Shown here in pieces: positions 35,904 to 54,360 of a DNA stretch of 64,000 nucleotides (position 1 is the first letter of the stretch; every line of letters begins with the position of its first letter). The notes beneath the pieces are model-generated. The model had not been told where the DNA came from. It saw only the letters and a program-made list of their open reading frames with translations, and made no database searches. The position numbers and the translations under genes are program-made. This DNA is from Ruegeria sp. TM1040 (GTDB taxonomy: Bacteria > Pseudomonadota > Alphaproteobacteria > Rhodobacterales > Rhodobacteraceae): the NCBI RefSeq assembly GCF_000014065.1, contig NC_008043.1, positions 510,001-574,000 on the forward strand, read 5' to 3'.

Positions 35904-38855
35904 TCAGATGCTCAGCGCTTCGTTCACGAGCGCAGCTTGTTGGGCTTTGTGTTCGCTGGCCAGGCCGGTTGCAGGCGAGGCCGAGGTGGCGCGCCCGACA
36001 TAGATCGGACGGGTGTTCTTTGCCTTGATGCGGGTCAGGACCCACTCAATGTTGGGCTCGATAAAGGTCCAGGCACCCTGGTTCTTGGGCTCTTCCTGGC
36101 ACCAGACCATTTCTGCGCCCTTGAACCGCTCCAGTTCCTTCACGAGGCTGATCGCCGGGAAGGGGTAATACTGCTCGATCCGCATGATATAGACATCGTC
36201 GATGCCGCGGGCGTCGCGCTCTTCAAGAAGGTCGTAGTAGACCTTGCCCGAACACAGCACCACGCGCTTGATCTTCTTGTCCTCAACGAGCTTGGTCTCA
36301 GAGAGACCCGTTTCCGCATCATCCCACAGAACCCGGTGGAAGGACGAGCCGGTGGTGAACTCATGTGCCTTGGACACGGCAAGCTTGTGGCGCAGAAGCG
36401 ACTTCGGCGTCACCAGAATGAGCGGCTTGCGGAAGGTCCGGTGCAGCTGACGGCGCAGGATGTGGAAGTAGTTCGCCGGCGTCGTGCAGTTCGCCACGAT
36501 CCAGTTATCCTGACCGCACATCTGCAGGAAACGCTCCAGACGCGCCGAAGAGTGCTCTGGACCCTGGCCCTCAAACCCGTGCGGCAAGAGGCACACAAGA
36601 CCGGACATCCGCAGCCACTTGCTCTCGCCCGAGGATACGAACTGGTCGAACATGATCTGCGCGCCATTGGCAAAGTCGCCAAACTGCGCTTCCCAGAGGG
36701 TCAGCGCGTTGGGCTCTGCCAGCGAGTAGCCATATTCAAAGCCCAGAACCGCGTATTCCGACAGTGCCGAGTCGATGACCTCATAGTTGGCCTGACCCGC
36801 GCGGATATTGTTGAGCGGGTAGTAGCGCTCTTCGGTGTCCTGATTGACGATGCCCGAATGGCGCTGCGAGAAGGTCCCGCGGGTGGAGTCCTGCCCCGCC
36901 AGACGCACCGGATACCCCTCGGTCAGAAGCGAGCCGAACGCCAGCGCCTCGCCGGTGGCCCAGTCAAAGCCTTCGCCGCTCTCGAACATCTTTTTGCGCG
37001 CATCAAGGAAGCGACCGATGGTCTTATGCACCGGATAGCCCTCGGGCAGAGTGGTCAGACCCTTGCCGACCTCCTCCAGCGTCTCGGGCTTGATGGCGGT
37101 TTCGCCACGCTGATAATCCTCGTCCTTGCTGTCGAGATGCGACCAGCGCCCATCCAGCCAGTCGGCCTTGTTGGGCTTGTAGGTCTTGCCGATCTCGAAC
37201 TCTTCGTTGAGGTGCGCCTGGAACGCCGCCTTCATGTCTTCGATCTCGCCCTCGGGGATCAGACCGTCCTTGACCAGACGTTCCGTGTAGAGGCTCAGGG
37301 TCGTCTTGTGACCCTTGATCTTCTTGTACATCAACGGGTTGGTGAACATCGGCTCGTCGCCTTCGTTGTGACCAAACCGGCGATAGCAGAAGATGTCGAT
37401 GACGACGTCCTTGTGGAACTTCTGGCGGAATTCGGTTGCGACCTTGGCTGCGTGGACCACGGCCTCCGGGTCGTCACCGTTGACGTGGAAGATCGGTGCC
37501 TCAACCACCAGCGCGTTGTCGGTGGGATAGGGCGAGGAGCGCGAGAAATGCGGTGCGGTGGTGAACCCGATCTGGTTGTTCACAACGATATGCATGGTGC
37601 CGCCGGTGCGGTGACCGCGCAGACCGGAGAGCGCAAAACATTCCGCCACAACACCCTGACCCGCAAAAGCCGCGTCGCCGTGCAGGAGGATCGGCAGAAC
37701 CGCCGTGCGGTCCTTGTCACCCAGCTGGTCCTGCTTGGCACGGACCTTGCCCAGCACAACCGGGTTCACCGCCTCAAGGTGCGAGGGGTTTGCGGTCAGC
37801 GACAGGTGGACGCTGTTGCCATCAAACTCACGGTCCGAAGAGGCGCCGAGGTGATATTTCACATCGCCCGAGCCATCCACGTCTTCGGGCTTGAACGATC
37901 CGCCCTGGAACTCGTTGAAGATCGCGCGATAGGGCTTTTGCATCACATTGGCCAGAACCGACAGGCGGCCGCGGTGCGGCATGCCGATCACGATGTCTTT
38001 GACACCGAGGTTGCCGCCGCGCTTGATGATCTGCTCCATCGCCGGGATGAGGCTCTCACCACCATCCAGACCAAAGCGCTTGGTGCCCATGTATTTTACA
38101 TGCAGGAACTTTTCGAACCCTTCGGCCTCAACCATCTTGTTGAGGATCGCCTTGCGGCCTTCGCGGGTGAAGGTGATTTCCTTGTCATAGCCCTCGATGC
38201 GCTCTTTCAGCCAGGCAGATTGCTCGGGGTCCGAGATATGCATGTACTGAAGCGCAAAGGTGCCGCAATAGGTCCGCTTCACGATATCCACGATCTGACG
38301 CATGGTGGCCACTTCCAGCCCCAGCACGTTGTCGATGAAGATCGGGCGGTCCATGTCGGCGCCGTCAAAACCGTAGGATTTCGGATCAAGCTCCGGGTGC
38401 GGCGTGGCGGCGCGCATGCCCAGCGGGTCGAGATCAGCCGCCAGATGGCCCCGGATCCGGTAGGCCCGGATCAGCATCAGAGCGCGGATCGAGTCGAGCA
38501 CCGCGCGCTGGATCGCCTCGTCAGAGACTTCGACACCCTTTTCCTTGGCCTTGTCGGCAATCTTCTTGCCGGCCGCCTTGGCCTCGACGGGGGCAGGCCA
38601 CTCGCCGGTCAGAGCCGCCGTGAGGTCGTCGGCAGGGGCGGGCGGCCAGTCGTTGCGCGCCCAGCTGGGGCCTGCAGCTTCGGCCTTCACGTCGCCATCA
38701 GCGTCGCCCATGGCGCGAAAGAATTCCGCCCACGCGGCGTCTACTGCGTTGGGATCATTGGCGTACTGGGCATAAAGCTGCTCCAGATACTCCGCGTTGT
38801 GCCCCTGCATAAAGGAGGACGCATGGAAGATGTCGTTGGGGCTCTGTTCGGTCAT
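35904..38855 (-). CDS. sucA: 2-oxoglutarate dehydrogenase E1
   Basis: Thiamine-diphosphate-dependent decarboxylase of the complex, 983 residues, the usual length. The N-terminal segment [54 protein letters not shown] and the C-terminal EEPKNQGAW are family marks. ATG at 38855 is preceded by GAGG. It follows sucD after a 240-base gap that holds a small hairpin. The opposite strand is open for 982 codons, an artefact of high GC. Confidence 0.97.
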
Positions 38856-39096: not shown

Positions 39097-39984
39097 TCAG
39101 CCGTTTGCAATCGCTTTCTGAACCGCTTCGCCCAGGGTGGCGGGGCTGTCGGCAACAACGATGCCTGCGGATTTCATCGCTTCGATCTTGTCTTCGGCGC
39201 CACCTTTGCCACCGGCGACAATCGCGCCCGCGTGGCCCATGCGGCGGCCCGGAGGGGCGGTACGGCCTGCGATGAAGCCCGCAATCGGCTTCCAACGGCC
39301 TTTTTTCTTCTGCTCGGCGATGAATTCCGCCGCTTCTTCTTCGGCAGAGCCACCGATCTCACCGATCATGATGATGGACTGGGTCTCATCATCGTCGAGG
39401 AACATGTCAAGGACGTCGATATGCTCGGTGCCCTTGATCGGGTCGCCGCCGATGCCAACTGCCGAGGACTGGCCCAGACCGATGTCAGAGGTCTGCTTCA
39501 CGGCCTCGTAGGTCAGGGTGCCGGAACGGGACACAACACCAACAGAACCACGCTTGTGGATGTGGCCTGGCATGATGCCGATCTTGCAGGCATCCGGGGT
39601 GATGACGCCGGGGCAGTTGGGGCCGATGAGGCGCGATTTGGAGCCTTCGAGGGCGCGCTGCACCTTCATCATGTCCAGAACCGGGATGCCTTCGGTGATG
39701 CAGACGATGAGTTCCATCTCGGCGTCGATCGCCTCGAGGATGGAGTCCGCTGCAAACGGCGGTGGCACATAGATCACCGAGGCGTTGGCTTCGGTTACAT
39801 GCTTGGCTTCATGCACGGAGTTGAAAACCGGCAGGTCAAGGTGGGTCTGACCGCCTTTGCCGGGGGTCACGCCGCCGACCATCTTGGTGCCATAAGCGAT
39901 GGCCTGTTCGGTGTGGAAGGTGCCCTGAGAGCCGGTGAGGCCCTGACAGATGACTTTGGTGTTTTCGTCGATGAGGACTGCCAT
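39097..39984 (-). CDS. sucD: succinyl-CoA synthetase, alpha subunit
   Basis: Substrate-level phosphorylation in the TCA cycle with SucC, 295 residues. The CoA-binding Rossmann segment [27 protein letters not shown] and the phospho-histidine segment [15 protein letters not shown] are present. It starts at ATG 39984 with AAGGAAAGGAC upstream, only 18 bases after the glycosyltransferase stop. In most bacteria sucD follows sucC directly; here a glycosyltransferase gene separates them. Confidence 0.97.
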
Positions 39985-40002: not shown

Positions 40003-40842
40003 TTATGCGGTTTGTGCCTCGGCGGCACGCGCCGCGCTGTCGTCGGTGAGCGCCCGATCCGCGTAAAGAACCCGCACAAGCCGTGCGCGCCCCGAGATCA
40101 GGCGAAGGAGATGCAGGGGCAGAGCGCGCAGCTCGGCCATGCCCCGCAGGCGTTTTTGTTTACGGTAGAGCGCACCCTTGGGCTTGCGCTGCGCATGCCC
40201 GAGAAAGGTGCCCTCCTCAGGAGGTGTATTGCCCTGCGTCACAAGCGCAGGGGTGATCTGATGGGGTTCAAGAGAGACCGCCAAAGGGGAAACAAGTGGA
40301 TTGAACAGCAACTGATCAATCGACATCGTAAATGGCCGCGACGCCAACAGAGCCTCTGCCCCCTTGCGGGAGACCAGGTAGCCGGCAGAGCCGGGATTGC
40401 GCGACAACATCGGTGCTACCTGGCGACCAAGGTGCTGCGACGCAGAGGTGCCAACCATCACCTTGAGAGTCTCGCTGCGCCAGAACTCCAGGTTCACAAG
40501 TTCACAGCCCTGCGGCCACCAGCTCAGATCCTCTGTCCATTGACGCAACTCTGCCGAGATAAAGACATCATCCTCAAAGATGAGGGCAACATCCGCATCC
40601 GACGCCAGAAACTGTTCCCAAACCTTGGCGTGGCTCAGGGTGCAGGCCATGTTGCCATGGGCAAACACCCCCCAGGGGCCAAAGCTCTTGCACTGCTGCA
40701 ACAGCTCCTCTTCCGAGGTCTCGGCCAGATCCACGGCGGACACGAATTCCGCGTCCAGACCGGCATCCCTCAGGGTGGCCTGCATCGCTGCATGCCGACC
40801 CTTGGCCCGGTCCAGAGAGATCATGTATGTCGCCAGCTTCAT
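40003..40842 (-). CDS. GT25-family glycosyltransferase inserted between sucC and sucD
   Basis: 279 residues of the LPS glycosyltransferase family 25. The marks are the N-terminal YMISLDRAKGRHAAM, the SAVDL segment, ACTLSHAKVWEQFL, the acidic motif ALIFEDDVFIS, and PGSAGYLVSRKGAEALL. No signal peptide, so it is cytoplasmic and likely modifies lipooligosaccharide or capsule. It sits in the sucC-sucD operon on the same strand, 58 bases after sucC behind a hairpin and 18 bases before sucD. Its link to the TCA cycle is unclear; coexpression is enforced by position. Confidence 0.88.
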   Translation of the reverse strand: MKLATYMISLDRAKGRHAAMQATLRDAGLDAEFVSAVDLAETSEEELLQQCKSFGPWGVFAHGNMACTLSHAKVWEQFLASDADVALIFEDDVFISAELRQWTEDLSWWPQGCELVNLEFWRSETLKVMVGTSASQHLGRQVAPMLSRNPGSAGYLVSRKGAEALLASRPFTMSIDQLLFNPLVSPLAVSLEPHQITPALVTQGNTPPEEGTFLGHAQRKPKGALYRKQKRLRGMAELRALPLHLLRLISGRARLVRVLYADRALTDDSAARAAEAQTA

Positions 40843-40900: not shown

Positions 40901-42094
40901 TTAACCCTTTACCGCTTTCACGATCTTCTCGGCCCCATCGGACAGATCATCTGCCGCGATCACGTTAAGACCGGAGTTCGCGATGATTTCTTTGCCCTTC
41001 TCGACGTTTGTGCCTTCGAGACGCACAACCAGCGGCACCTCAAGGCCCACTTCTTTCACGGCTGCAATCACGCCTTCTGCGATCACGTCGCAGCGCATGA
41101 TGCCGCCAAAGATGTTCACGAGGATACCTTTGACGTTCTTGTCGGAGGTGATGATCTTGAACGCTTCGGTCACTTTCTCTTTGGTGGCGCCGCCGCCCAC
41201 ATCGAGGAAGTTCGCAGGCTCTGCTCCATAGAGCTTGATGATGTCCATGGTGGCCATCGCCAGACCCGCGCCGTTCACCATGCAGCCGATCTCACCGTCG
41301 AGCGCGATGTAGTTCAGGTCGTACTTGGACGCTTCGAGCTCTTTGGGGTCTTCTTCGGTCTCGTCGCGCAGGGCGGCGATATCGGCGTGGCGATAGATCG
41401 CGTTGCCGTCGAAACCGACCTTTGCGTCCAGCACTTTCAGGTCACCATTGTCGGCGACGATCAGCGGGTTGATCTCCAGCATCTCCATGTCCTTCTCGAT
41501 GAAGGCTTGGTAGAGCTGACCCATCAGCTTGACGCACTGCTTCACCTGCGCGCCCTCAAGGCCGAGCGAGAAGGCAACGCGGCGCCCGTGGTACGCCTGA
41601 TAGCCGGTGGCCGGATCAACGGAGAACGACAGGATCTTTTCCGGGGTCTCAGCGGCGACTTCTTCAATGTCCATGCCGCCCTCGGTGGAGCAGACAAAAG
41701 ACACGCGGGAGGTCACGCGATCCACCAGCAGCGCCAGATACAGCTCGGTCTGGATGCCAGAGCCCGCCTCGATGTAGATGCGGTTCACCTGCTTGCCCGC
41801 CGGGCCGGTCTGGTGGGTCACGAGGGTGCGGCCCAGCATCTTCTTGGCTTCTTCGGCGGCTTCTTCGACCGATTTGGTCAGGCGTACGCCGCCTTTTTCA
41901 CCGGCGTCGGCTTCCTTGAAGGAGCCCTTGCCGCGACCACCTGCGTGGATCTGGGCCTTCACGACCCAAAGCGGGCCGTCAAGCTCGCCTGCTGCGGTTT
42001 TGGCTTCGTCTGCTTTCATCACCACGCGCCCGTCCGAAACCGGAGCGCCGTAGCTGCGAAGGAGGGCCTTGGCCTGATATTCGTGGATGTTCAT
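40901..42094 (-). CDS. sucC: succinyl-CoA synthetase, beta subunit
   Basis: ATP-grasp subunit partnered with SucD, 397 residues from ATG at 42094 ([12 protein letters not shown]). The segments [22 protein letters not shown] and [18 protein letters not shown] and the C-terminal [13 protein letters not shown] are family marks. It is the first gene of the sucC-GT25-sucD-sucA-sucB unit. The paired TGTGATCACA palindrome lies 113 bases upstream of the start codon. The longer frame to 42151 lacks support. Confidence 0.97.
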
Positions 42095-42206
42095 GAGAAA
42101 CTGTCCCGTCTGGCTGCAATTGTCCCTTGCTAGTACGCCTGCATCAAACAAGAGGTTAAAGCCTTTTCTGCCCAGTGAGCGCTAAATGATGAAGATTTTT
42201 CGTTTT

Positions 42207-42237
42207 TGTGATCACAGCCCAGAGACGTGTGATCACA
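42207..42237. promoter_or_regulatory. paired TGTGATCACA palindromes upstream of sucC
   Basis: Two exact copies of the 10-bp palindrome TGTGATCACA at 42207-42216 and 42228-42237, starts 21 bases apart, about two helical turns. The same pair with the same spacing is upstream of sdhC. This indicates side-by-side binding of a dimeric regulator on one DNA face. The regulator is unknown; a GntR/FadR-like or CRP-type protein is a guess from the half-site form. Confidence 0.75.
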
Positions 42238-42294
42238 TATGGAAAACGACTAAAATTCAGCGATTCGCGTAAGCGCGCCCGGCGTGTTTGAGAA

Positions 42295-42914
42295 ATGCTG
42301 CGCCGCGTCAAGAGCCTTCCAATGACTGGAGGCTATAGTTTTGACCTGTCGGAAAAATTTCATTTCCCTCCCGCAATCAGGGGCGGTTCTCGGCTGGGCA
42401 GGGCCGTCTGTGCCTGGACTACCGCACGCCCAGAGATCAGGTCCAAGCCAAAGAAGCGGAAGTTCTGGCGAAAGCCACTCGTCTTGCAAGCGTCTCGTGT
42501 GCAAGATGGCTTGCCCACGTTTGTCGACTTCTATCTTTACAACGACAAGCCCAAGATGCGCCTGATCCAACGGTGGAACTTCACCGGTCTTTGGCGCGAT
42601 CCAGAAACAACGATTCACGTCCCGAAATCCCTGATTTTCCCCTCCAAGATGCTGAAATGCACGGTATCCTCCTGCGCGTTCCCGCCAAGGCAGAAGAGGT
42701 TTGCGCCTTTCTTTATGGCCCGTCCTGGCGGACGTCAGCGCGCAAAGGAGAAGGATACGAGATGAAGATTGTGGATAATCGCCCGCAATTTATTCAGAAA
42801 ATACGGCGTGATCGCGGTCACGACATCTCTGCTCTGAACGAGTTCTGTGCAGCGCGGGCCAAGTACATGGCTCGCGCTTTTTCGCAAACTCTGGAATCGC
42901 AGGCTACAGCTTGA
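42295..42914 (+). pseudogene. frameshifted gene, possible LicD-related protein
   Basis: Two open frames read as one protein of about 206 residues when joined by a single-base shift near 42636-42645 in the run ATTTTCCCCT. Frame 1 gives VDFYLYNDKPKMRLIQRW then ETTIHVPKSLIFP. The other frame continues DFPLQDAEMHGILLRVPAKA, EEVCAFLYGPSWRTSARKGE and GYEMKIVDNRPQF to the stop at 42914. The FLYGPSWRTS part recalls the C-terminus of LicD-type (phosphocholine or sugar-phosphate transfer) proteins, but the catalytic LicD start is not seen, so the family is uncertain. It is either decayed or carries a one-base sequence error. Confidence 0.55.
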
Positions 42915-43755
42915 TCCGCGCCGTCTTGTTGGGCTTCACTCTCTGGCGCGCAGGAGGCAGATCGTAAATTCTGCTCGACCCCTTCAGGGAGCGATCCGCC
43001 TCACGCGCTTTTATCATGGTCTGCAGATGCCTCGGTCGCACCACCTCCTGCAAGCCAATCGGCTCATCCGTGTTTGGATGCGCGACGTCATGCAATGCGC
43101 GCACATGCAGACACCGAATGCCACCATTTATGCGCCCCCATTTGTCCAGGAGAGACTGTTTTAACAGGTTGTACTCAGGGGGGAGCACGAGAGGCATCAG
43201 TTGATGCTCATAAAGAGTAGCGCGCAAAACCGGTTGATCCTTTCCGATCTTTGACCGCGCATAGTTTCTATCCCAGTCTTCCCAAAAAGCGAGTGTCTGC
43301 GGGGTTCTGCGGATGGCAAAAACGCCTGAATTCAAAACTGGAAACGCGTGTGGGATATCTTTGCGGTATGACGTCATCTCGGTCCTGGAACGGGACACGC
43401 CGAGCGCTGCGGCGATTGGATGAGTGTCAAGGAGATCAAACACATCCGAGATGTCCTCGACAACGACCACGTCTGCGTCGAGGTAGATCGTTTTTTCAAA
43501 ACGCGACGAAAGAAGCGCTTCCATTTTGGGGCGGGGCCCGCGATGGGTGACCGGATGTATTTTGTCAAAGATCGGATCCTCGATCTTTTGGTCGGTACAT
43601 AGATCGATCTGCGCTTTTGGCATCGCCAGCTTGAGGCTGCGCGCAGCCCGGCGGGCGAGGTTGGTATATTGAAGGCCAGTGGTGGCAAAAACAAAACCCT
43701 CTCCCTCGCGGTTCTTGGTCTGCCGCGGGCGCAAGAGATTTTTCAAATAAATCAT
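42904..43755 (-). CDS. GT8-like glycosyltransferase
   Basis: 283 residues from ATG at 43755 (MIYLKNLLRPRQ). The nucleotide-sugar and metal-binding DXD is in KTIYLDADVVVVEDIS. Other segments are FVFATTGLQYTNLARRAARS, FPVLNSGVFAIRR and DQPVLRATLYEHQLMPLVLP. This is the pattern of GT8-type or related surface-glycan transferases. A longer frame reaches 43848, but that start falls inside the mdh terminator. The last 11 bases overlap, tail to tail, with the frameshifted gene on the other strand. GC is lower than in mdh and sucC, so it may be acquired. Confidence 0.75.
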   Translation of the reverse strand: MIYLKNLLRPRQTKNREGEGFVFATTGLQYTNLARRAARSLKLAMPKAQIDLCTDQKIEDPIFDKIHPVTHRGPRPKMEALLSSRFEKTIYLDADVVVVEDISDVFDLLDTHPIAAALGVSRSRTEMTSYRKDIPHAFPVLNSGVFAIRRTPQTLAFWEDWDRNYARSKIGKDQPVLRATLYEHQLMPLVLPPEYNLLKQSLLDKWGRINGGIRCLHVRALHDVAHPNTDEPIGLQEVVRPRHLQTMIKAREADRSLKGSSRIYDLPPARQRVKPNKTARIKL

Positions 43756-43848
43756 GTCTTTAGAAATTAAAATTCGGGGGGCGATGAAAGCGCTGCCATT
43801 GAACGGGGGCTTGTAGAATGGCCTGAAAACGGAGCGTTCTAAGGGCAT

Positions 43849-43872
43849 AAGCCCGGCTCAAAAGCCGGGCTT
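43849..43872 (-). terminator. terminator of mdh
   Basis: AAGCCCGGCT (43849-43858) and AGCCGGGCTT (43863-43872) form a perfect 10-bp stem with a four-base loop, 32 bases after the mdh stop on the minus strand. Confidence 0.75.
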
Positions 43873-43903
43873 ACTGTTTTCTTCAGTTTCGAGATGCTTT
43901 GGC

Positions 43904-45735
<1,832 letters not shown>

Positions 45736-46047
45736 TCAGGCGTCGGTGTCCATTGCCGGAAGCGCTTCGGCCAGAACCTCATAGGATTGTCCCGATGCCA
45801 CCAGGCAGGTCATGCCATTGGGAGTGGTGACGGTGATGGTCCAGGATCCGGTTTCTGCCGAGGCGAAGGTTTCCATAACCATGCCCTGCTGGCCCATGCC
45901 GATGCTTTGACGGCTTTCACCGTATTTTTCAGCAAGGCGCTTCACCACCATTTCGCGGGGGGCGCAGTTCTGGCTCTGAGCGGCGGACATTTGACTGGAC
46001 AGCACAAGCGCGAGACCAGCGGCGAATGTAAAAAGCGTCTTCTTCAT
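45736..46047 (-). CDS. small secreted hypothetical protein
   Basis: 103 residues from ATG at 46047 with a clear signal peptide: MKKTLFTFAAGLALVLSSQ, cleavage near MSAAQS. The mature part has NCAPREMVVKRLAEKYGESR, a GMGQQGMVMETFAS segment, GSWTITVTTPNGMTCLVASG and two Cys that may form a disulfide. The family is not named here, but the pattern (short exported protein with a REM..RL..YGE start) is common in Roseobacter-type genomes. Periplasmic location is inferred. It converges on no gene and faces the mdh-side gap. Confidence 0.82.
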   Translation of the reverse strand: MKKTLFTFAAGLALVLSSQMSAAQSQNCAPREMVVKRLAEKYGESRQSIGMGQQGMVMETFASAETGSWTITVTTPNGMTCLVASGQSYEVLAEALPAMDTDA

Positions 46048-46409
46048 AGGTTTTACCCCTTTCGGAACGATCCCCCACAAGGGCCGTGACAGGGGCCCAA
46101 AAGGCACCCCGGCGACCTGGAATGGACCGGTTTTCTGGTGACGTAATCATGACTGCAGACCCAAGGTCCGCGTGGCGCCAGAGCGGAAAACAGCCGCCAG
46201 AGGAGAGCGCCGGTACGAGTCAGAATGGCATAGAGGTCCAAAGAACTGGTTAACTTTGAGAACGGTATATTTATCAATAGCATAGCAAATTCTCCCTGTA
46301 GTCGCCGCAGGAAGTTTCTGCGTTGCAGAAGGATTTCCCTTGAAATCAACCTGCTGCAAATGTAGCCATTTCGGTAATATTATGACTTTGACATCTCTGG
46401 GAGAGCCCT
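46048..46409. other. intergenic region upstream of the malyl-CoA lyase-type gene
   Basis: 362 bases without a gene. The part 46230-46390 is AT-rich and probably carries the promoters for both divergent neighbours. GTTGCAG near 46321 and CTGCAA near 46353 form a spaced inverted repeat that could be an operator. GGGAG at 46400-46404 is the ribosome-binding site of the next gene. Confidence 0.4.
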
Positions 46410-47264
46410 ATGGATCCGCGTGCGCGCCCTTATCGTTCCGTCCTTTATATCCCCGGCTCCAAGCCGCGTGCGCTGGACAAGGCCCGCACTCTGCCGGTGG
46501 ACGCGATCATCTTTGACCTCGAAGACGCGGTCTCGGTAGAGGAAAAGGAAAACGCCCGCACAACATTGGCGGACGCGCTGGCGGCGGGGGGCTATGGCGC
46601 CCGGATGAAGATCGTGCGCATCAACGGGCTCGACACTGCATGGGGGCATGCGGACGCCGAGGCGGCGGCTCGCATGGGATGTGACGCGATCCTTCTGCCG
46701 AAGGTGTCTTCGCCCGCGGATCTTGATGCGCTGGCAGAGATCACCGGCGACGTGCCGCTCTGGGCGATGATGGAGACCCCGCGTGGCATGCTCAACGCCG
46801 CAGAAATCGCCGCGCATCCTAGGCTTCAGGGCATGGTGATGGGCACCAATGATCTTGCCAAGGACATGCAGACCCGCTTTCGCGCCGACCGGTTGCCGCT
46901 GATGAGCGGGCTTGGGTTGTGCGTTCTGGCCGCCAAGGCGGAGGGCAAGATCATCGTCGATGGAGTCTTTAATGCCTTTAAGGATGTGGAAGGGCTGGCG
47001 GCGGAATGCGCGCAGGGGCGCGACATGGGCTTTGACGGCAAGACGCTCATCCATCCCGCGCAGGTTGATGTGACCAATGAGGCCTTTGCACCTTCTGCCG
47101 CCGAGATGGACCTTGCGCGACGCCAGATCGCCGCCTTTGAGGAGGCCGAGGCCAGCGGGCAGGGGGTGGCCGTGGTCGATGGCAAGATTGTCGAGAACCT
47201 CCATGTGGTCACCGCGCGCGAGATTCTCGCAAAAGCAGATGCAATTGCAGCGATCTCCGGCTAG
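46410..47264 (+). CDS. mcl2: HpcH/HpaI-type CoA ester lyase or (3S)-malyl-CoA thioesterase
   Basis: 284 residues of the CitE/malyl-CoA lyase superfamily. The marks are RSVLYIPGSKPRALDKA, the metal/active-site segments IIFDLEDAVSVEEKE and VRINGLDTAWG, ILLPKVSSP, MMETPRGMLNA and DGKTLIHPAQVDV. In Rhodobacter relatives a paralogue in this position, between mdh and the mesaconyl-CoA hydratase gene, is the (3S)-malyl-CoA thioesterase Mcl2 of the ethylmalonyl-CoA pathway; the true lyase Mcl1 is encoded elsewhere. The choice between thioesterase and lyase is inferred from context. Confidence 0.82.
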   Translation: MDPRARPYRSVLYIPGSKPRALDKARTLPVDAIIFDLEDAVSVEEKENARTTLADALAAGGYGARMKIVRINGLDTAWGHADAEAAARMGCDAILLPKVSSPADLDALAEITGDVPLWAMMETPRGMLNAAEIAAHPRLQGMVMGTNDLAKDMQTRFRADRLPLMSGLGLCVLAAKAEGKIIVDGVFNAFKDVEGLAAECAQGRDMGFDGKTLIHPAQVDVTNEAFAPSAAEMDLARRQIAAFEEAEASGQGVAVVDGKIVENLHVVTAREILAKADAIAAISG

Positions 47265-47329
47265 GGCTGTGGTGGGGGCGGCGTGACGGCACCCGGCCCC
47301 TTGGCACCCGTCTGACGTTGGAGAAAGAC

Positions 47330-47878
47330 ATGGCACTTCTTATACTTGGCATCATCCTGTGGTGGGGCGCCCACCTGTTCAAACGCGTGGCACCCGCGCA
47401 GCGCGCAAGCCTTGGCGACAAGGGCAGGGGGCTCGTGGCTCTTGTTCTGCTGGTAAGCGTGGTCCTGATGGTCCTCGGGTATCGCGGCACCGAGTACATC
47501 CATGTCTGGGCGCCCGCACCTTTCCTCGTGCATGTCAACAACACGCTGATGCTGTTCGCGCTCTATTTCACCAGTCCCGGTCCCAACAAGGGGGCGCTGT
47601 TTCACAAGATGCGCCATCCGATGCTGACCGGGTTCAAAATCTGGGCGGTCGCGCATCTTCTGGTCAACGGCGATCTGGCTTCGGTGATCCTCTTTGGGGG
47701 GCTTCTGGCCTGGGCCGTGGTCGAGGTGATCACCATCAACAAATCCGAACCGAACTGGCAGCCTAATCCTAAAGGCAGCCTTGCCAAGGACGCCATGTTC
47801 TTTGTCGCTTCGATCGTGCTTCTGGGCGTGATCGGCTATATTCACGGGCTCGTCGGGCCCTCACCATTCCCGGGGTAA
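47330..47878 (+). CDS. NnrU-family membrane protein
   Basis: 182 residues, five or six hydrophobic segments. ATG at 47330 with GGAGAAAG upstream. The family marks are LILGIILWWGAHLFKRVAP, LVLLVSVVLMVLGYRGTEYI and the HKMRHPMLTGFKIWAVAHLL segment with conserved His residues. NnrU proteins were described near denitrification genes, but many Rhodobacterales carry one in this TCA/ethylmalonyl-CoA neighbourhood; no denitrification gene is present here. Function remains unclear. It is followed after four bases by the DUF1737 gene. Confidence 0.88.
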   Translation: MALLILGIILWWGAHLFKRVAPAQRASLGDKGRGLVALVLLVSVVLMVLGYRGTEYIHVWAPAPFLVHVNNTLMLFALYFTSPGPNKGALFHKMRHPMLTGFKIWAVAHLLVNGDLASVILFGGLLAWAVVEVITINKSEPNWQPNPKGSLAKDAMFFVASIVLLGVIGYIHGLVGPSPFPG

Positions 47879-47882
47879 CTCT

Positions 47883-48086
47883 ATGAAACTCTATCGTTTT
47901 CTGAGCGAAGATGACACATCTGCGTTTTGTCACAAGGTGACGGATGCGCTCAACAAGGGCTGGGAGCTCTATGGCAGTCCGACCCAGACCTTTGATCCCG
48001 TAAAGGGCATCATGCGCTGCGGTCAGTCGGTGGTCAAAGAGGTGGACGGCACCTACACGCCCGACACCAAATTGGGAGCGCACTGA
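47883..48086 (+). CDS. DUF1737 small protein
   Basis: 67 residues: MKLYRFLSEDDTSAFCHKV, then ALNKGWELYGSPTQTFD. This is the DUF1737 pattern, a short protein found next to acyl-CoA enzymes in this group. It lies four bases after the NnrU gene and one base before the hydratase gene, so all three are probably cotranscribed. Confidence 0.85.
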   Translation: MKLYRFLSEDDTSAFCHKVTDALNKGWELYGSPTQTFDPVKGIMRCGQSVVKEVDGTYTPDTKLGAH

Positions 48087-48087
48087 C

Positions 48088-49128
48088 ATGAGCAAGACCA
48101 ACCACGGGCGTTTCTTTGAGGATTACAAACTGGGCGAGGTGATCCGCCATGCGGTGCCGCGCACCGTGTCGGGCGGTGAGCGGGCATTGTATCATGCGCT
48201 CTATCCGGCGCGACATGCGCTCTATTCCTCGGATGAATTTGCCCGTTCGGTTGGTCTGACCCATGACAACGGCGCGCCGCTGGAGGATCTGGCGGCGTTC
48301 CATATCGTCTTTGGCAAGACGGTGCCGGATATCTCGCTCAATGCGGTGGCGAACCTTGGGTATGCCGAGGGGCGCTGGCTTTTGCCGGTCTATCCGGGCG
48401 ACACCTTGCGCGCCGAGAGCGAGGTGATCGGGCTCAAGCAGAACTCCAACGGCAAGACAGGCGTGGTCTGGGTCCGCACGCGCGGGCTCAACCAGCGCGA
48501 TGACTGCGTGCTCGAATACGTGCGTTGGGTGATGGTCCGAAAGGGCAACCTGGACGCCGATGCACCGGAGACCTGCGTGCCGGAGCTGAAACCGGCTTTG
48601 GCCGCGGAAGATCTGGCGCTGCCTGCGGGGCTTGATTTCACGTCCTATGATTTTGCACTGGCCGGAGAGCCGCATCGCTGGGGGGACTACGCCATTGGCG
48701 AGCAGATCGACCATGTGGATGGCGTCACGGTGGAAGAGGCCGAGCATATGCTTGCCACCCGCCTGTGGCAGAACACGGCCAAGGTCCATTTCGACAGCAC
48801 CGCGCGCCCGGATGGCAGCCGGTTGATTTACGGCGGTCATGTGATCTCGATGGCGCGGGCCTTGTCGTTCAACGGGTTGGCGAATGCGCAGATGATCGTG
48901 GGGCTGAATGGCGGTGCCCATGCCAACCCTTGTGTCTCTGGTACAACGATCCGGGCGTGGTCCGAGGTTCTGGATAAGGCGCAGACCGCAGCGCCCGGTG
49001 TGGGCGCGATCCGCTTGCGTCTCGTGGCCACCTCTGGCGGTGCACCCTTTGCCTTGAAAGGCGCGGATGGGAAATATGTGCCAGAGGTGCTGCTGGATCT
49101 GGATTACTGGGCATTGATGCCGCTGTGA
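48088..49128 (+). CDS. mch: mesaconyl-CoA hydratase (MaoC type)
   Basis: Interconverts mesaconyl-CoA and beta-methylmalyl-CoA in the ethylmalonyl-CoA pathway of acetyl-CoA assimilation. It has 346 residues, close to the 343 of the Rhodobacter enzyme as I recall. Double hot-dog layout: first half with DYKLGEVIRHAVPRTVSGGE, HIVFGKTVPDISLNAVANLG; second half with DYAIGEQIDHVDGVTVEEAE, GGHVISMARALSFNGLANAQ. It is coded with the malyl-CoA lyase-type gene upstream, which acts on the next intermediate. The dispersed repeat follows its stop. Confidence 0.88.
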   Translation: MSKTNHGRFFEDYKLGEVIRHAVPRTVSGGERALYHALYPARHALYSSDEFARSVGLTHDNGAPLEDLAAFHIVFGKTVPDISLNAVANLGYAEGRWLLPVYPGDTLRAESEVIGLKQNSNGKTGVVWVRTRGLNQRDDCVLEYVRWVMVRKGNLDADAPETCVPELKPALAAEDLALPAGLDFTSYDFALAGEPHRWGDYAIGEQIDHVDGVTVEEAEHMLATRLWQNTAKVHFDSTARPDGSRLIYGGHVISMARALSFNGLANAQMIVGLNGGAHANPCVSGTTIRAWSEVLDKAQTAAPGVGAIRLRLVATSGGAPFALKGADGKYVPEVLLDLDYWALMPL

Positions 49129-49136
49129 TGCAGACC

Positions 49137-49210
49137 GGGAAGGGGGCGCTGCCCCCTCGCGCCGCTTCTGACGAAGCGGCCCTCACCCCCGGGATATTTT
49201 GGGTTAGAAG
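49137..49210 (+). repeat. dispersed intergenic repeat, copy 2
   Basis: Shares with 31925-31993 the hairpin GGGGGCGCTGCCCCC and the tail CCCCCGG plus GATATTTTGGGTTAGAAG. A second hairpin (CCGCTTCTGACGAAGCGG) lies between the two conserved blocks. It sits between mch and the histidine phosphatase gene and ends just before the latter's ribosome-binding site. Confidence 0.65.
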
Positions 49211-49223
49211 AGGAGGGGCCTCT

Positions 49224-49799
49224 GTGGCGCAGGTTCTGTATCTGACGCATCCCGAGGTGGGTATTGATCCGGCGGTGGCGGTTCCTGATTGGGGGTTGAG
49301 CGCCCATGGTGCGGCGCGGGTGGCGGATCTGGCCAAGCGCGGCGCATGGAATGGCTGGCATGTGGTGACAAGTGCGGAGCGTAAGGCGTTGGAGACGGCA
49401 TGGCCGCTTGCTGCCGCAGCGGGCTCTGCCGTTGAGGTGCGTCCTGACATGCATGAAAATGACCGCTCGGCCACGGGGTATCTGCCGGGGGCGGAGTTTG
49501 AGGCCGTGGCGGATGCGTTTTTTGCCTACCCTGAGGTCTCGGTGCGGGGATGGGAGCGGGCGGTGGACACGCAGGCGCGGATCATCCGCGAGGTGCAGGC
49601 TGTATTAGCGGCACAACGCGGGCGGGATGTGATCTTTTGTGGTCATGGCGCTGTGGGCACACTTTTGTATTGTGCGCTGGCCGGAGAAGCGATCTCGCGC
49701 CGCTGGGATCAGACCGGGGGTGGGCATTATTTTTCATTCGATCTTGAGCATATGACACCTATGACGCATTGGCAGGCGCTGGAGACGCTCTGGCGTTAA
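49224..49799 (+). CDS. histidine phosphatase superfamily protein
   Basis: 191 residues from GTG at 49224, chosen because AGGAGGGG lies six bases upstream and the more distal in-frame start at 49125 would translate the intergenic repeat. The fold marks are the N-terminal LYLTHPEVGID, where the usual RHG is degenerate (THP), the SAERKALETAWPLA segment, and the second His in IFCGHGAVGTLL. Whether it is an active phosphatase is uncertain because the arginine of the first motif is not obvious. Confidence 0.78.
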   Translation: MAQVLYLTHPEVGIDPAVAVPDWGLSAHGAARVADLAKRGAWNGWHVVTSAERKALETAWPLAAAAGSAVEVRPDMHENDRSATGYLPGAEFEAVADAFFAYPEVSVRGWERAVDTQARIIREVQAVLAAQRGRDVIFCGHGAVGTLLYCALAGEAISRRWDQTGGGHYFSFDLEHMTPMTHWQALETLWR

Positions 49800-49876
49800 G
49801 CGGATGTGTAAGGATCGCGGGGTAGCCTCTGGCGACTCAGTGATTAATTCTGACTGTTATACTTGGGATTTGACTT

Positions 49877-49907
49877 TGTGATCACAGCAATCTGGCTTGT
49901 GATCACA
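49877..49907. promoter_or_regulatory. paired TGTGATCACA palindromes upstream of sdhC
   Basis: Exact copies at 49877-49886 and 49898-49907, starts 21 bases apart, ending 115 bases before the sdhC start codon. Arrangement and distance match the pair upstream of sucC, so a shared regulator of the TCA operons is likely. Confidence 0.75.
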
Positions 49908-50021
49908 ACGTGTAGAAATTGCCCCGAACGGCAGCGATAACAGCGGATTTTTACCACTCGTTTGCGTGACAGGGCGCAAAAATAGGCTAAAACGTCGACA
50001 GCTAACCGGAAAGGAGCCAAC

Positions 50022-50405
50022 ATGGCCGATGTCAATCGGGGCAAACGCCCGCTTTCGCCGCATTTGACCATTTATCGCCCGCAGCTCACCTCTATGTCGT
50101 CGATCATGGTGCGCATCACCGGAATCGCGGCGCTTGCGGTGGCGCTGCTTGTGGTGTGGTGGCTCTTGGCCGCTGCCACCTCCGAGAGCGCCTTTGCGTT
50201 CATCGACGGGCTGTTGCGCAGCTGGCTGGGAGACATCGTGATGCTCCTCGCGGCCTGGGCGATCTTTTATCACATGCTCGGACGCCTGCGTCACGTGGTC
50301 TGGGACTTCGGCTACTGCCTTGAGGTCGAAACCTCTGAGAAGCTGGGCGTGGGCATGTTTATTGGCGCAACCGTACTGACCGTCCTTGCGGCGCTCGTGG
50401 TCTGA
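50022..50405 (+). CDS. sdhC: succinate dehydrogenase cytochrome b556 subunit
   Basis: Membrane anchor of complex II carrying haem and the quinone site, 127 residues. The start ATG at 50022 follows AAAGGAG. The family segment RPLSPHLTIYRPQLTSMSSI is followed by RITGIAAL and two further hydrophobic stretches; the haem-ligand region is HMLGRLRHVVWD. It begins the sdh operon. Confidence 0.95.
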   Translation: MADVNRGKRPLSPHLTIYRPQLTSMSSIMVRITGIAALAVALLVVWWLLAAATSESAFAFIDGLLRSWLGDIVMLLAAWAIFYHMLGRLRHVVWDFGYCLEVETSEKLGVGMFIGATVLTVLAALVV

Positions 50406-50815: not shown

Positions 50816-52624
50816 ATGACAGCAGCATATGAATATGAAACCCATGAATATGACGTGGTGGTTGTGGGCGCCGGCGGCGCCGGTCTGCGGGCGACGCTTG
50901 GCATGGCCGAGCAGGGTCTGCGCACAGCCTGCGTAACCAAGGTCTTCCCGACCCGCTCGCACACCGTGGCCGCACAGGGGGGCATCGCCGCCTCGCTTGG
51001 CAACATGGGGCCCGACAGCTGGCAGTGGCACATGTATGACACCGTCAAAGGCTCGGATTGGCTGGGTGACACGGATGCGATGGAATATCTCGCCCGTGAG
51101 GCGCCCAAAGCGGTCTACGAACTTGAGCACTACGGCGTGCCGTTCTCGCGGACGGAAGAAGGCAAGATCTATCAGCGTCCCTTCGGGGGTCACACCACCG
51201 AGTTTGGTGAAGGCCCGCCGGTGCAGCGCACCTGTGCCGCCGCCGACCGGACCGGCCACGCGATCCTGCACACGCTCTATGGGCAGAGCCTCAAGAACAA
51301 CGCGGAATTCTATATCGAGTATTTCGCCATCGACCTGATCATGTCCGAGGACGGGCAATGTCAGGGTGTGGTGTGCTGGAAGCTCGATGATGGCACCATG
51401 CATGTCTTCAACGCCAAGATGGTGGTGCTGGCGACCGGCGGTTATGGCCGTGCCTATTTCTCTGCGACCTCGGCCCATACCTGCACCGGCGACGGTGGCG
51501 GTATGGTAGCGCGCGCGGGTCTGCCGCTTCAGGATATGGAGTTTGTGCAGTTCCACCCGACCGGCATCTACGGCTCCGGCTGTCTGATCACCGAGGGCGC
51601 GCGCGGCGAAGGCGGCTACCTGACGAACTCCGAGGGTGAGCGCTTTATGGAGCGGTATGCGCCCAACTATAAAGACCTCGCACCGCGCGACTATGTCTCG
51701 CGCTCCATGACCATGGAGATCCGCGAAGGTCGTGGTGTGGGTGAGCATGGCGACCATATCCACCTGAACCTCAGCCACTTGCCGGCCGAAGCGCTGGCGG
51801 AGCGTCTGCCGGGGATTTCCGAGTCTGCAAAAATCTTTGCAGGTGTCGACGTCACCAAAGAGCCGATCCCGGTTCTGCCGACCGTGCACTACAACATGGG
51901 CGGTATCCCCACGAACTATTGGGGTGAGGTGCTGAACCCCACTGAGGACAACCCGACCGGTGTTGTTCCGGGTCTTATGGCCGTGGGTGAGGCGGGCTGT
52001 GCCTCTGTGCATGGTGCCAACCGTCTGGGCTCCAACTCTCTCATCGACCTTGTGGTCTTTGGCCGTGCATCGGCGATCCGCGCCGGCAAGGTCGTGGACC
52101 CAGAGGCCCCCAACCCGGTGCTGAACCAGGCGTCCATCGACAAGGCCTTTGATCGCTTTGACGGGCTGCGCAACGCCAAGGGTGGCACGCCGACCGCGGA
52201 ACTGCGCCTTGAGATGCAGCGCACCATGCAGGCGGATGCGGCGGTGTTCCGCACCGACAAGACCCTCAAGGAAGGCGTCGAGAAGATGGAGGTGATCGCG
52301 GCCAAGCTCGACGATCTCCATGTCACCGATACCTCGTTGGTGTGGAACTCCGACTTGATGGAGACGCTCGAGCTTACCAACCTGATGCCCAACGCGCTGG
52401 CGACCATCGTTGGCGCTGAGGCGCGCAAGGAAAGCCGTGGTGCCCATGCGCATGAGGATTACGCCGAGCGTGACGATGAAAACTGGCGTGTGCACACCGT
52501 GGCACGGGTTGAGGGCAACAAGACCTCCCTCAGCTATCGTCCGGTGATTGTTGATCCGCTGACCAATGAGGACGCCGGTGGCATCAGCCTCAAGAAGATC
52601 GCGCCCAAGGCTCGGACCTTCTAA
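50816..52624 (+). CDS. sdhA: succinate dehydrogenase flavoprotein subunit
   Basis: Catalytic subunit oxidising succinate to fumarate, 602 residues. The FAD motif [19 protein letters not shown], the covalent flavin His segment [17 protein letters not shown], the substrate-site HPTGIYGSG with EGARGEGG, and GAGGNRLGSNS-like [18 protein letters not shown] are intact. ATG at 50816. Its TAA stop is directly abutted by the ATG of the sulfotransferase gene (52625), so that gene is translated with it. Confidence 0.97.
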
Positions 52625-53497
52625 ATGACCTCTGCGCCTCCCAGAATTCTCTGCGTCGGCACGCATCACAAGACGGGTACCGTCTGGATGCGGCGTGTCT
52701 GGCGCGAGATCGGGGAGGCGCTCTCTATTCCCTTTGTTCCGGTTCACAATCCGCAGAACTGGACACGTATCCCCACCAAGGGGCGCGTGATTGTTGCAAA
52801 CTGGGGTGCGCGCTTTGCGCCTGATTTGTTCGACACCCCGGAGGCGCGGTTCCTGCATGTAATCCGTGATCCGCGCGATGTCCTGATTTCGGGCGCGCGC
52901 TATCACGAGGACGCACCGGGGCGCTCGGAGCGGTTCTTGCACAAAGCGCGTGCGGATCTTGGCGGTCTGACCTACCAGCAGCATCTGCGCAGCTTGCCCA
53001 GCCGCGACGACAAGTTGCGGTTCGAGATGGGGGAGATGCATCAGCGTACCCTGACCGAGATGCTCGATTGGCCCTATGGCCACCCGCGTGCCTTTGACGT
53101 CACCTTTGAGACGCTGATGGCCGATACTGGCTGCGAGACCTTCGCGGCAGCGCTGGAGTTCTTTGGTTTTGACGCGCCAGAGGTCGAGGTTGCGCAGAAG
53201 ATCTTCTTCAAGCATGCGCTTTTTGGTGGCTTCAGTGATAAAAACTCTGACGGCACCACGGATCGCAGGCTGAACGCCCATGTGGCACCGGGCGCGAAAC
53301 GCGGCTGGCGGCAGGTATTCTCGGCCGAGATCGCCGAAGATTATTGCGCACGCTTTGGCGCGGCGCTGGTGCGCCTGGGCTATGAAACGGACGCGCGGGC
53401 GTGGTGCGATGCGATCGCGCCGAAGACAGCGATCCCGGAGCCCGCGCATATGGTGCAGCCGCCCCCTTTGGGGCTGGCGATGGGGGGGATGGCATGA
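52625..53497 (+). CDS. sulfotransferase-like protein 1, within the sdh operon
   Basis: 290 residues. The PAPS 5'-phosphosulfate loop is CVGTHHKTGTVWMRRVW and the 3'-phosphate segment is LHVIRDPRDVLISGARYHED, both standard for the sulfotransferase superfamily. No signal peptide. The start follows the sdhA stop with no spacing (TAAATG), and its stop overlaps the next gene by four bases, so it is embedded in the sdh operon ahead of sdhB. The acceptor is unknown; a polysaccharide or a small metabolite is possible. A PAPS-independent role cannot be ruled out. Confidence 0.85.
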   Translation: MTSAPPRILCVGTHHKTGTVWMRRVWREIGEALSIPFVPVHNPQNWTRIPTKGRVIVANWGARFAPDLFDTPEARFLHVIRDPRDVLISGARYHEDAPGRSERFLHKARADLGGLTYQQHLRSLPSRDDKLRFEMGEMHQRTLTEMLDWPYGHPRAFDVTFETLMADTGCETFAAALEFFGFDAPEVEVAQKIFFKHALFGGFSDKNSDGTTDRRLNAHVAPGAKRGWRQVFSAEIAEDYCARFGAALVRLGYETDARAWCDAIAPKTAIPEPAHMVQPPPLGLAMGGMA

Positions 53498-54360
53498 CCT
53501 CTGTCGCTGCTTTCGCCACCTCACCAAACGCCTGGGAGGCGCTCGGCATCCGGCCTGCGCGCGCCCTGCGCATGATCGGCATGCGGCGCTCTGGCAATCA
53601 CGCGATTGCCAACTGGCTGCAGCGCAACGCCGAGCGTGCGGTGTTTCTGAACAACTGTCGCCCGACGCGCGACCCGCTCCTGAGCCACAATGGCATCGAG
53701 GTCGGCGGCGCGCGTTTTGCAGGCGATCCCGTCGAGGCGGCGGCTGAGGCGGGCGAGGGGGCGCTGCTATTGGTGTCTTATGAGGACACGATCCATCAGC
53801 GTTTTGTGACCAAGGACAATCTGTCCGGCCCCTACAAAAGCGCTAATTTCAGTGCTGAGTTGTTGATCTATCGCAGCTTTCTGAACTGGAGCGCCTCGCT
53901 TCTGAAAAAGCTGCAGCGCAACGAGAGTTACCGCGCGGCGGACCGGATGGCGGTCGCTGCGCGCGCTGTGGCGACCTATGGCGACCTGCTTGTCGAGGTT
54001 CTCGAAGCGCCGCAGGACGGTCGGGTTGCGATCTGCTATGACGCCTGGGCGCAGGATGAGCTTTATCGCGCGCGGCTGCTCTCGGATCTGGGTCTGAGCC
54101 TGCGCGACAACAGCCTGGGCGATGTCCAGCCCTACGGCGGCGGGTCGAGCTTTCAAGACAGCGCCACGGACCCCGCAGAGCTGCAGCCGTCCGCGCGCTG
54201 GCGCGAGATGGCCCGGGACCCCGAGTATCAGGCCCTGTTGCAGGTCGCCGCATTGGACCGCGCCTTCATGGATCGCGTTGATGCGCTTTTCCCCGCAGAT
54301 GCCGCGCTGATGGCGCGCCTGCCGGATCTTCCCGCTCTGGACGTGGAGGCAGACCTGTGA
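53494..54360 (+). CDS. sulfotransferase-like P-loop protein 2, within the sdh operon
   Basis: 288 residues from ATG at 53494 (ATGA overlap with the previous stop); the longer frame from 53401 lies in the preceding gene. The N-terminal loop LRMIGMRRSGNHAIANWLQR is the P-loop of a sulfotransferase-related group in which the loop reads RRSGNHA. The other conserved segments are VFLNNCRPTRDPLL, LLLVSYEDTIHQRF and IYRSFLNWSASLL, the last filling the place of the RDP segment. Pairing with protein 1 suggests joint action on one acceptor. No signal peptide. It is followed by a 129-base gap before sdhB. Confidence 0.75.
   Translation: MTSVAAFATSPNAWEALGIRPARALRMIGMRRSGNHAIANWLQRNAERAVFLNNCRPTRDPLLSHNGIEVGGARFAGDPVEAAAEAGEGALLLVSYEDTIHQRFVTKDNLSGPYKSANFSAELLIYRSFLNWSASLLKKLQRNESYRAADRMAVAARAVATYGDLLVEVLEAPQDGRVAICYDAWAQDELYRARLLSDLGLSLRDNSLGDVQPYGGGSSFQDSATDPAELQPSARWREMARDPEYQALLQVAALDRAFMDRVDALFPADAALMARLPDLPALDVEADL

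Follow-up and report, generated by a model that had tools for sequence, protein, structure and literature searches.

Two operons of the tricarboxylic acid (TCA) cycle in Ruegeria sp. TM1040 are each preceded by a pair of identical palindromic boxes, and it is quite likely that both pairs are operators of AkgR, a GntR-family regulator that would activate them from upstream as two dimers on one face of the DNA. The boxes lie in a 64,000-nucleotide stretch of contig NC_008043.1 (positions 510,001 to 574,000, called the window below), one pair upstream of sucC and the other upstream of sdhC, the first gene of the sdh operon. We read the pairs as AkgR operators because their motif and targets match those published for AkgR, because the pairs are conserved at near-fixed spacing and a box also stands at akgR, and because the pairs are absent where an AkgR orthologue is absent. 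The regulator is thus very probably one already known. It appears in the literature under two names, AkgR and RSP_0981, which we take to be the same protein, and the primary paper defining and naming AkgR is reportedly Imam et al. 2015. In the passages of PMC4344238 that deal with RSP_0981, sucCD, sdh and the genes for 2-oxoglutarate dehydrogenase are given as predicted targets of this GntR regulator, and PMC6365646, where it touches on AkgR of Rhodobacter sphaeroides, describes a transcriptional activator with the palindrome GTGATCAC. As far as those passages go, motif and predicted regulon together support the original prediction that 2-oxoglutarate dehydrogenase, succinyl-CoA synthetase and complex II are controlled jointly.

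Paired boxes upstream of sucC and sdhC

Each box is a perfect 10-bp palindrome, TGTGATCACA. It occurs twice upstream of sucC (42207 and 42228) and twice upstream of sdhC (49877 and 49898), with starts 21 bp apart in both places, which confirms the two palindrome pairs and the spacing that had been noticed in this DNA beforehand. The coordinate differences between box and start codon (42094 on the minus strand for sucC, 50022 for sdhC) are 113 and 115, leaving 112 and 114 intervening bases.

42207..42216, minus strand: proximal AkgR box of sucC, TGTGATCACA; predicted site, pair conserved
42228..42237, minus strand: distal AkgR box of sucC, TGTGATCACA; predicted site, pair conserved
40901..42094, minus strand: sucC, succinyl-CoA synthetase beta (NCBIfam NF001913)
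49877..49886, plus strand: distal AkgR box of sdhC, TGTGATCACA; predicted site, pair conserved
49898..49907, plus strand: proximal AkgR box of sdhC, TGTGATCACA; predicted site, pair conserved
50022..50405, plus strand: sdhC, first sdh operon gene (NCBIfam TIGR02970)

Allowing one mismatch, the window holds seven copies of the motif against 1.53 expected, a number reached by none of 100 dinucleotide shuffles. The whole genome (4.15 Mb, 3 contigs) has eight exact copies: the four paired ones, one at 45529, one before an akgR-like gene and two within coding sequence. One of these last two sits in a gene that by eye looks like lipA. With one mismatch allowed there are 123 sites, so single sites, once relaxed, are no rarity in this genome; it is the exact paired form that is rare. 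Pairs of the exact 8-bp core GTGATCAC at a gap of 2-32 bp number two, at the sucC and sdhC promoters, and the paired motif is therefore not strewn across the genome. On the same count, which covers exact-core pairs and not degenerate ones genome-wide, we reject a larger TCA regulon with paired sites in this organism. The genes gltA, icd, acn and aceE, which had been expected among the targets, have no exact pair; single or degenerate sites there were not checked.

How far the pairs are conserved was assessed at several depths. Across the order, the exact 31-bp pair is found in 193 of 292 genomes (83 of 112 genera), every one of them in our organism's own family, while the reversed control pattern is found in none. 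Across the class it occurs in three of 385 genomes, and those three belong to the same family, which contributes five genomes to the 385. Our close sample comprised 81 genomes from 77 genera: the window and 80 others, all with sucC, consisting of three congeners, the first listed genome of each of the genera g2-g76, and two (G023 and G231) added since a search for akgR had found none in them. Up to 19.5 kb was fetched around each sucC and searched for pairs at spacings of 8-40 bp. Upstream of sucC the pair is present in 78 of the 81 (77 with perfect 8-bp cores, one with a single mismatch) and missing from three. For sdhC, which was not found in the fetched stretch of eight genomes, 73 could be assessed; 69 have the pair (66 perfect, three with one mismatch) and four do not (G231, G141, G110 and G008). 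The expected conservation in related genomes was thus borne out. Spacing hardly varies: 21 bp in 72 and 20 bp in five of the perfect sucC pairs, 21 bp in 57 and 20 bp in nine of the perfect sdhC pairs.

Such conservation also bears on the idea that the pairs are chance repeats, or repeats unrelated to regulation. Short palindromes do arise by chance, and coding sequence holds two of the eight copies in the genome. Yet the sucC pair is kept in 74 of 77 genera at a spacing of 20-21, against a median pairwise identity between genomes of 0.36 (sucC) and 0.30 (sdhC) in the 50 bp that follow, and because the pair is conserved we regard chance as hardly credible.

A search with TTGTGATCACA found five matches in G224, all at sucC, sdhC and akgR, and zero to several additional sites in the other five genomes searched. 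Several extra boxes or pairs away from suc and sdh were seen in G015, G009 and G046; regulon growth and chance are both possible origins.

AkgR and the genomes that lack it

The akgR-like gene of Ruegeria sp. TM1040 lies on another contig (C3:535543-536202, locus L007). Its protein has the GntR/FadR (FCD) architecture, with Pfam matches to GntR (3.4e-13) and FCD (2.3e-17). The solved structure that matches best, in sequence and in fold alike, is that of Escherichia coli McbR (4p9f), and the nearest named relative is a protein of Tritonibacter mobilis (99% identical). A structure model of this relative, built with 22 sequences, has a mean predicted local distance difference test score (pLDDT) of 65, the N-terminal DNA-binding part alone being confident. 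At E<=1e-30, a level that a paralogue may reach as well, the L007 protein has matches in 289 of the order's 292 genomes.

An exact TGTGATCACA stands 9 bp upstream of the akgR-like ATG. Among 31 akgR genes (the 30 best-scoring relatives and that of G094, a sample biased to the nearest relatives), the region from 300 bp upstream to 40 bp past the match start contains a box with at most one mismatch in 29, and most of these boxes end about 7-12 bp ahead of the likely start codon. G094, the most distant of the 31, has no box at akgR. The position of this single box at the gene start suggests that AkgR would limit its own synthesis.

A link between pairs and regulator comes from genomes in which both are missing. 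Four of the 80 genomes (G023, G141, G231 and G110) have no strong akgR match; in the others the best E-values are 1.1e-81 or lower. A more sensitive search found no homologue in G231, one of 32% identity in G141 and one of 49% in G110. (By eye, the G110 homologue adjoins an agmatinase-like gene.) Pairs were searched genome-wide in 42 genomes, chosen to include G141, G231 and G110. These three have no exact-core GTGATCAC pair anywhere, as against 39 of 39 others that do, and 32 of the 42 have exactly two. The genomes devoid of any pair are the three assessable ones without an AkgR orthologue. G023 keeps its pairs and has no detectable akgR; the akgR neighbourhood, as judged from its relative G020, reads as N, and this genome counts neither way. 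A quick tree of SucC and Mdh has 79 rows; its root serves for drawing only, and 31 of its 76 inner branches lack support. G141 and G110 group in a supported clade close to the base of this tree, and G231 is nested deeply within genomes that carry akgR. The co-absence would then amount to two events on the tree, one of them best read as a loss.

Conservation, near-fixed spacing and co-absence with AkgR together support the proposal that one regulator contacts two adjacent sites on one face of the DNA. In the reading we favour, one AkgR dimer would be bound to each GTGATCAC palindrome, and the two dimers would sit side by side, two helical turns apart. Two points tell against assigning the boxes to AkgR in this way. 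G008 has akgR and no sdhC pair, and the 80 akgR-like loci were compared with L007, R. sphaeroides AkgR not being among them.

Might some other regulator bind the boxes, for example a 40% identical paralogue of akgR or a protein unrelated to it, with the co-occurrence of AkgR incidental? Our genome does have further GntR/FCD homologues besides the akgR-like gene, the split between presence and absence comes down to two events, and a related protein, PS417_07240, has been proposed for the same palindrome in passages of PMC6365646. G141 and G110, however, lack an orthologue and the pairs though distant homologues remain in both; a box stands at akgR itself, and the published motif is that of AkgR. 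We therefore judge another regulator very unlikely. The paralogue in question, L069 (C3:3149654-3150253), is itself a GntR+FCD protein. Elsewhere, L198 (titled Nocardioides marinus) and L210 (Phyllobacteriaceae) hold akgR genes 91% and 85% identical to our own; these records are probably mislabelled or contaminating contigs of our family.

Predicted core promoters and phased A/T tracts

Downstream of the boxes, candidate promoter elements could be placed at both operons, as could a stretch of 50 bp in which A/T tracts recur at intervals of about 10 bp:

42154..42203, minus strand: sucC stretch with A/T tracts, from proximal box to predicted core promoter; putative role
42154..42159, minus strand: predicted -35 of sucC, TTAACC; offset +52 from proximal box, weak consensus
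42142-42147, minus strand: alternative predicted -35 of sucC, TTGATG
42130..42135, minus strand: predicted -10 of sucC, TACTAG; offset +76
42119-42124, minus strand: alternative predicted -10 of sucC, GACAAT
49911..49960, plus strand: sdhC stretch with A/T tracts, from proximal box to predicted core promoter; putative role
49966..49971, plus strand: predicted -35 of sdhC, GTGACA
49988..49993, plus strand: predicted -10 of sdhC, TAAAAC; 16 bp past the -35

Promoter offsets were taken from column profiles and k-mer positions instead of a consensus scan. In 53 of 69 genomes the sdhC promoter has GTGAC starting at +61 to +64, counted from the middle of the proximal box, a constant offset despite a box-to-ATG distance that ranges from 118 to 208 bp. 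The column profile of those 53 promoters continues with a 16-bp spacer and then TAWWAM, and GTGAC with TAWWAM makes a plausible -35/-10 pair. The 78 sucC promoters fall by box-ATG distance into a short class of 15 and a long class of 61, with two in neither. TGTG lies at +59 in 8 of the 15 short promoters and at +68 to +70 in 25 of the 61 long ones, and neither class has it where the other does. Our own -35 candidate at +52 is near the TTTA and TTG maxima of the relatives (+51/+52), and the -10 offset of +76 is where TAT most often lies among the 61 long-spaced relatives, yet in 9 of the 61 only. With start sites accordingly predicted near 42123 for sucC and near 50000 for sdhC, the sdhC boxes would have their centres about 97 and 118 bp before the start, and the sucC boxes of our own genome about 88 and 109 bp. 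For R. sphaeroides, PMC7471390 names a start-site data set (GEO GSE150944).

These positions point, weakly at sucC, to predicted core promoters spaced one helical turn apart (about +65, +75 and +85). The data on whole-turn spacing are the constant sdhC offset and the ten-base shift of TGTG between the two sucC classes, with the start sites predicted only.

The DNA between boxes and core promoters has its own pattern. A/T maxima fall near +5, +15, +25, +35 and +45 in both sucC classes and at sdhC, and the periodic signal exceeds that of all 2000 random rotations (in non-redundant sets of 54 sucC and 61 sdhC sequences). Per sequence, the mean z of the periodicity is 2.1 at sucC and 2.0 at sdhC, compared with 0.18 in 1500 random windows of similar A/T content and -0.5 to 0.5 in nearby control segments. 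Taken modulo 10.1 bp, the tract phase is almost equal at the two genes, 4.4 at sucC and 4.8 at sdhC, with coherence of 0.93 and 0.89. Positions +13 to +16 of sucC are all A/T in 45 of 54 sequences, and a TpA step occurs in three of those 45; the other tracts have TpA in 2/27, 5/17 and 7/19 cases at sucC and in 3/27, 5/11, 8/29 and 3/21 at sdhC.

One could go further and see in all this a family-wide architecture, in which two locked AkgR dimers would activate RNA polymerase through a ladder of A-tracts, one per turn. The core promoter would have moved between lineages and genes in whole-turn steps only, and the ladder would act as a spacer, bent or docking the C-terminal domain of the polymerase alpha subunit (alpha-CTD), that relays GntR-family activation from about 77-97 bp upstream. 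We put this forward tentatively, and would sooner bet against it than for it. Several observations weigh against our favoured reading of activation by AkgR from upstream. Sixteen of the 69 sdhC promoters have no GTGAC at +61 to +64. A -10 matrix scores above 4 at 36 of 78 sucC promoters, ten of them at +62 to +66, nine at +72 to +76 and 17 elsewhere; at sdhC it peaks at +83 to +87 (34 of 56), partly by construction since the matrix was learned from sdhC. A sigma-70 consensus scan gives scattered hits at sucC. The best-fit periods are unequal (9.5 bp at sucC, 10.5 bp at sdhC), and predicted curvature is moderately raised (z 0.64 at sucC and 1.33 at sdhC, in a wedge model). In three AkgR-less genomes the sucC upstream regions (L118, L149 and L151), with segments placed by distance from the ATG, still have a periodicity z of 1.83, so the tracts may serve polymerase without AkgR. 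Bacterial genomes also have a general periodicity of about 11 bp, according to passages of PMC4132750.

That persistence at sucC gives substance to a simpler account, in which the tracts are a plain extended UP element, independent of AkgR, and the boxes add regulation upstream of it. The 42 of 45 all-A/T tracts at +13 to +16 without a TpA step fit as well, missing TpA steps being expected of A-tracts and UP elements. On the other hand, the periodicity at sdhC is absent in the same three AkgR-less genomes (z -0.17), and the register of the tracts against the box is coherent, though a constant promoter offset would give the same. We consider the UP element a real possibility that nonetheless falls short of even. 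It is compatible with our favoured explanation of the boxes.

A further alternative grants that the boxes bind AkgR and makes it mainly a repressor or road-block, with the A/T tracts and promoter spacing unrelated features. Many GntR/FCD proteins repress, the single box at akgR has a repressor-like position, and AkgR-less sucC promoters retain some A/T periodicity. Against this, the boxes are a good way upstream of where the core promoter is predicted, at a constant offset at sdhC, and AkgR is termed a transcriptional activator where PMC6365646 mentions it. Repression as the main mode is, in our estimate, unlikely.

In the case for AkgR as an upstream activator, then, papers supply the motif, the description as an activator and the operons predicted as its Rhodobacter targets; occupancy of the boxes, two dimers per pair, the start sites, contact with polymerase and autorepression are steps that we infer.

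Neighbouring genes, related regulators and meaning

The remaining features of the window are as follows. The genes sucC, sucA, mdh, sdhC and sdhA were named by NCBIfam and Pfam, and sucD and sdhB by Pfam domains.

39097..39984, minus strand: sucD (Pfam CoA_binding and Ligase_CoA)
35904..38855, minus strand: sucA, 2-oxoglutarate dehydrogenase E1 (NCBIfam NF006914); downstream of sucC
50816..52624, plus strand: sdhA (NCBIfam TIGR01816)
45529..45538, no strand assigned: unpaired exact TGTGATCACA; not conserved

From the order sucC-sucD-sucA on the minus strand one operon is likely, and the sucC promoter would then probably serve 2-oxoglutarate dehydrogenase too. A gene for a family-25 glycosyltransferase lies between sucC and sucD (40003-40842, minus strand), and a glycosyltransferase-like gene between sucC and mdh (42904-43848). 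Between sdhA and sdhB there are two open reading frames without a Pfam match (52625-54360). The distance from the sdhA match to the sdhB match runs, in 73 loci, from 14 bp to 5.35 kb (median 737), and because it is so variable the sdh operon seems to have an internal insertion hotspot that holds different genes.

The fifth exact TGTGATCACA of the window, at 45529-45538, which the original observation does not list, is unpaired and about 667 bp upstream of mdh. Outside the sucC and sdhC promoters there are eight exact copies in the 1.57 Mb of the 81 loci, and one other, in G038, lies shortly before mdh. The copy is not conserved across the loci, on which ground a role as mdh operator was dropped, and it is probably not a functional part.

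Other regulators of these genes were considered. CRP and FnrL are ruled out, the palindrome here having no spacer. Class I activator promoters (such as CRP-dependent ones) and promoters with upstream curvature or an UP element would resemble the predicted arrangement in having an activator upstream of the -35 on a fixed helical face and A/T tracts near the positions of alpha-CTD. Here the activator would be of the GntR family, with two tandem sites, the proximal one about 77-97 bp upstream of the predicted start. CceR (RSP_1663, LacI family) of R. sphaeroides is predicted to regulate sdh and mdh in passages of PMC4344238, which give it the motif [AGT]GTT-N6-8-AAC[ACT]; by inspection our boxes read TGTGATCACA and not this motif, and CceR is ruled out. 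In Paracoccus denitrificans, sdh and 2-oxoglutarate dehydrogenase are outside the CceR regulon in what PMC11323563 says of it. PS417_07240, of the deoxyribonate cluster of Pseudomonas simiae, is GntR-like, shares GTGATCAC and is 32% identical to AkgR; it differs in having its site at -47 to -40 of its own gene's start codon and in belonging to a catabolic cluster and not the TCA cycle (relevant passages of PMC6365646).

With the AkgR regulon of R. sphaeroides, as those sources sketch it, our system has in common the GntR-family regulator, its palindrome and the suc, sdh and 2-oxoglutarate dehydrogenase targets. Described here across a family are the tandem pair at 20-21 bp, its set placement ahead of the core promoter, the phased tracts and the akgR box. 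Literature passages on AkgR, which do not extend to Imam 2015, contain no description of tandem spacing or phased tracts. What looks new is how strictly the sites, and the DNA after them, are laid out; the regulator, very probably AkgR, was known before, as was its core regulon.

A known, little-studied regulator would in this way be tied to a precise DNA geometry across a whole family, at consecutive steps of the TCA cycle. How GntR-family proteins activate, as opposed to repress, is in our judgement poorly understood, and this geometry bears on it. In genomes of the family, the pair may serve as a simple predictor of AkgR control.

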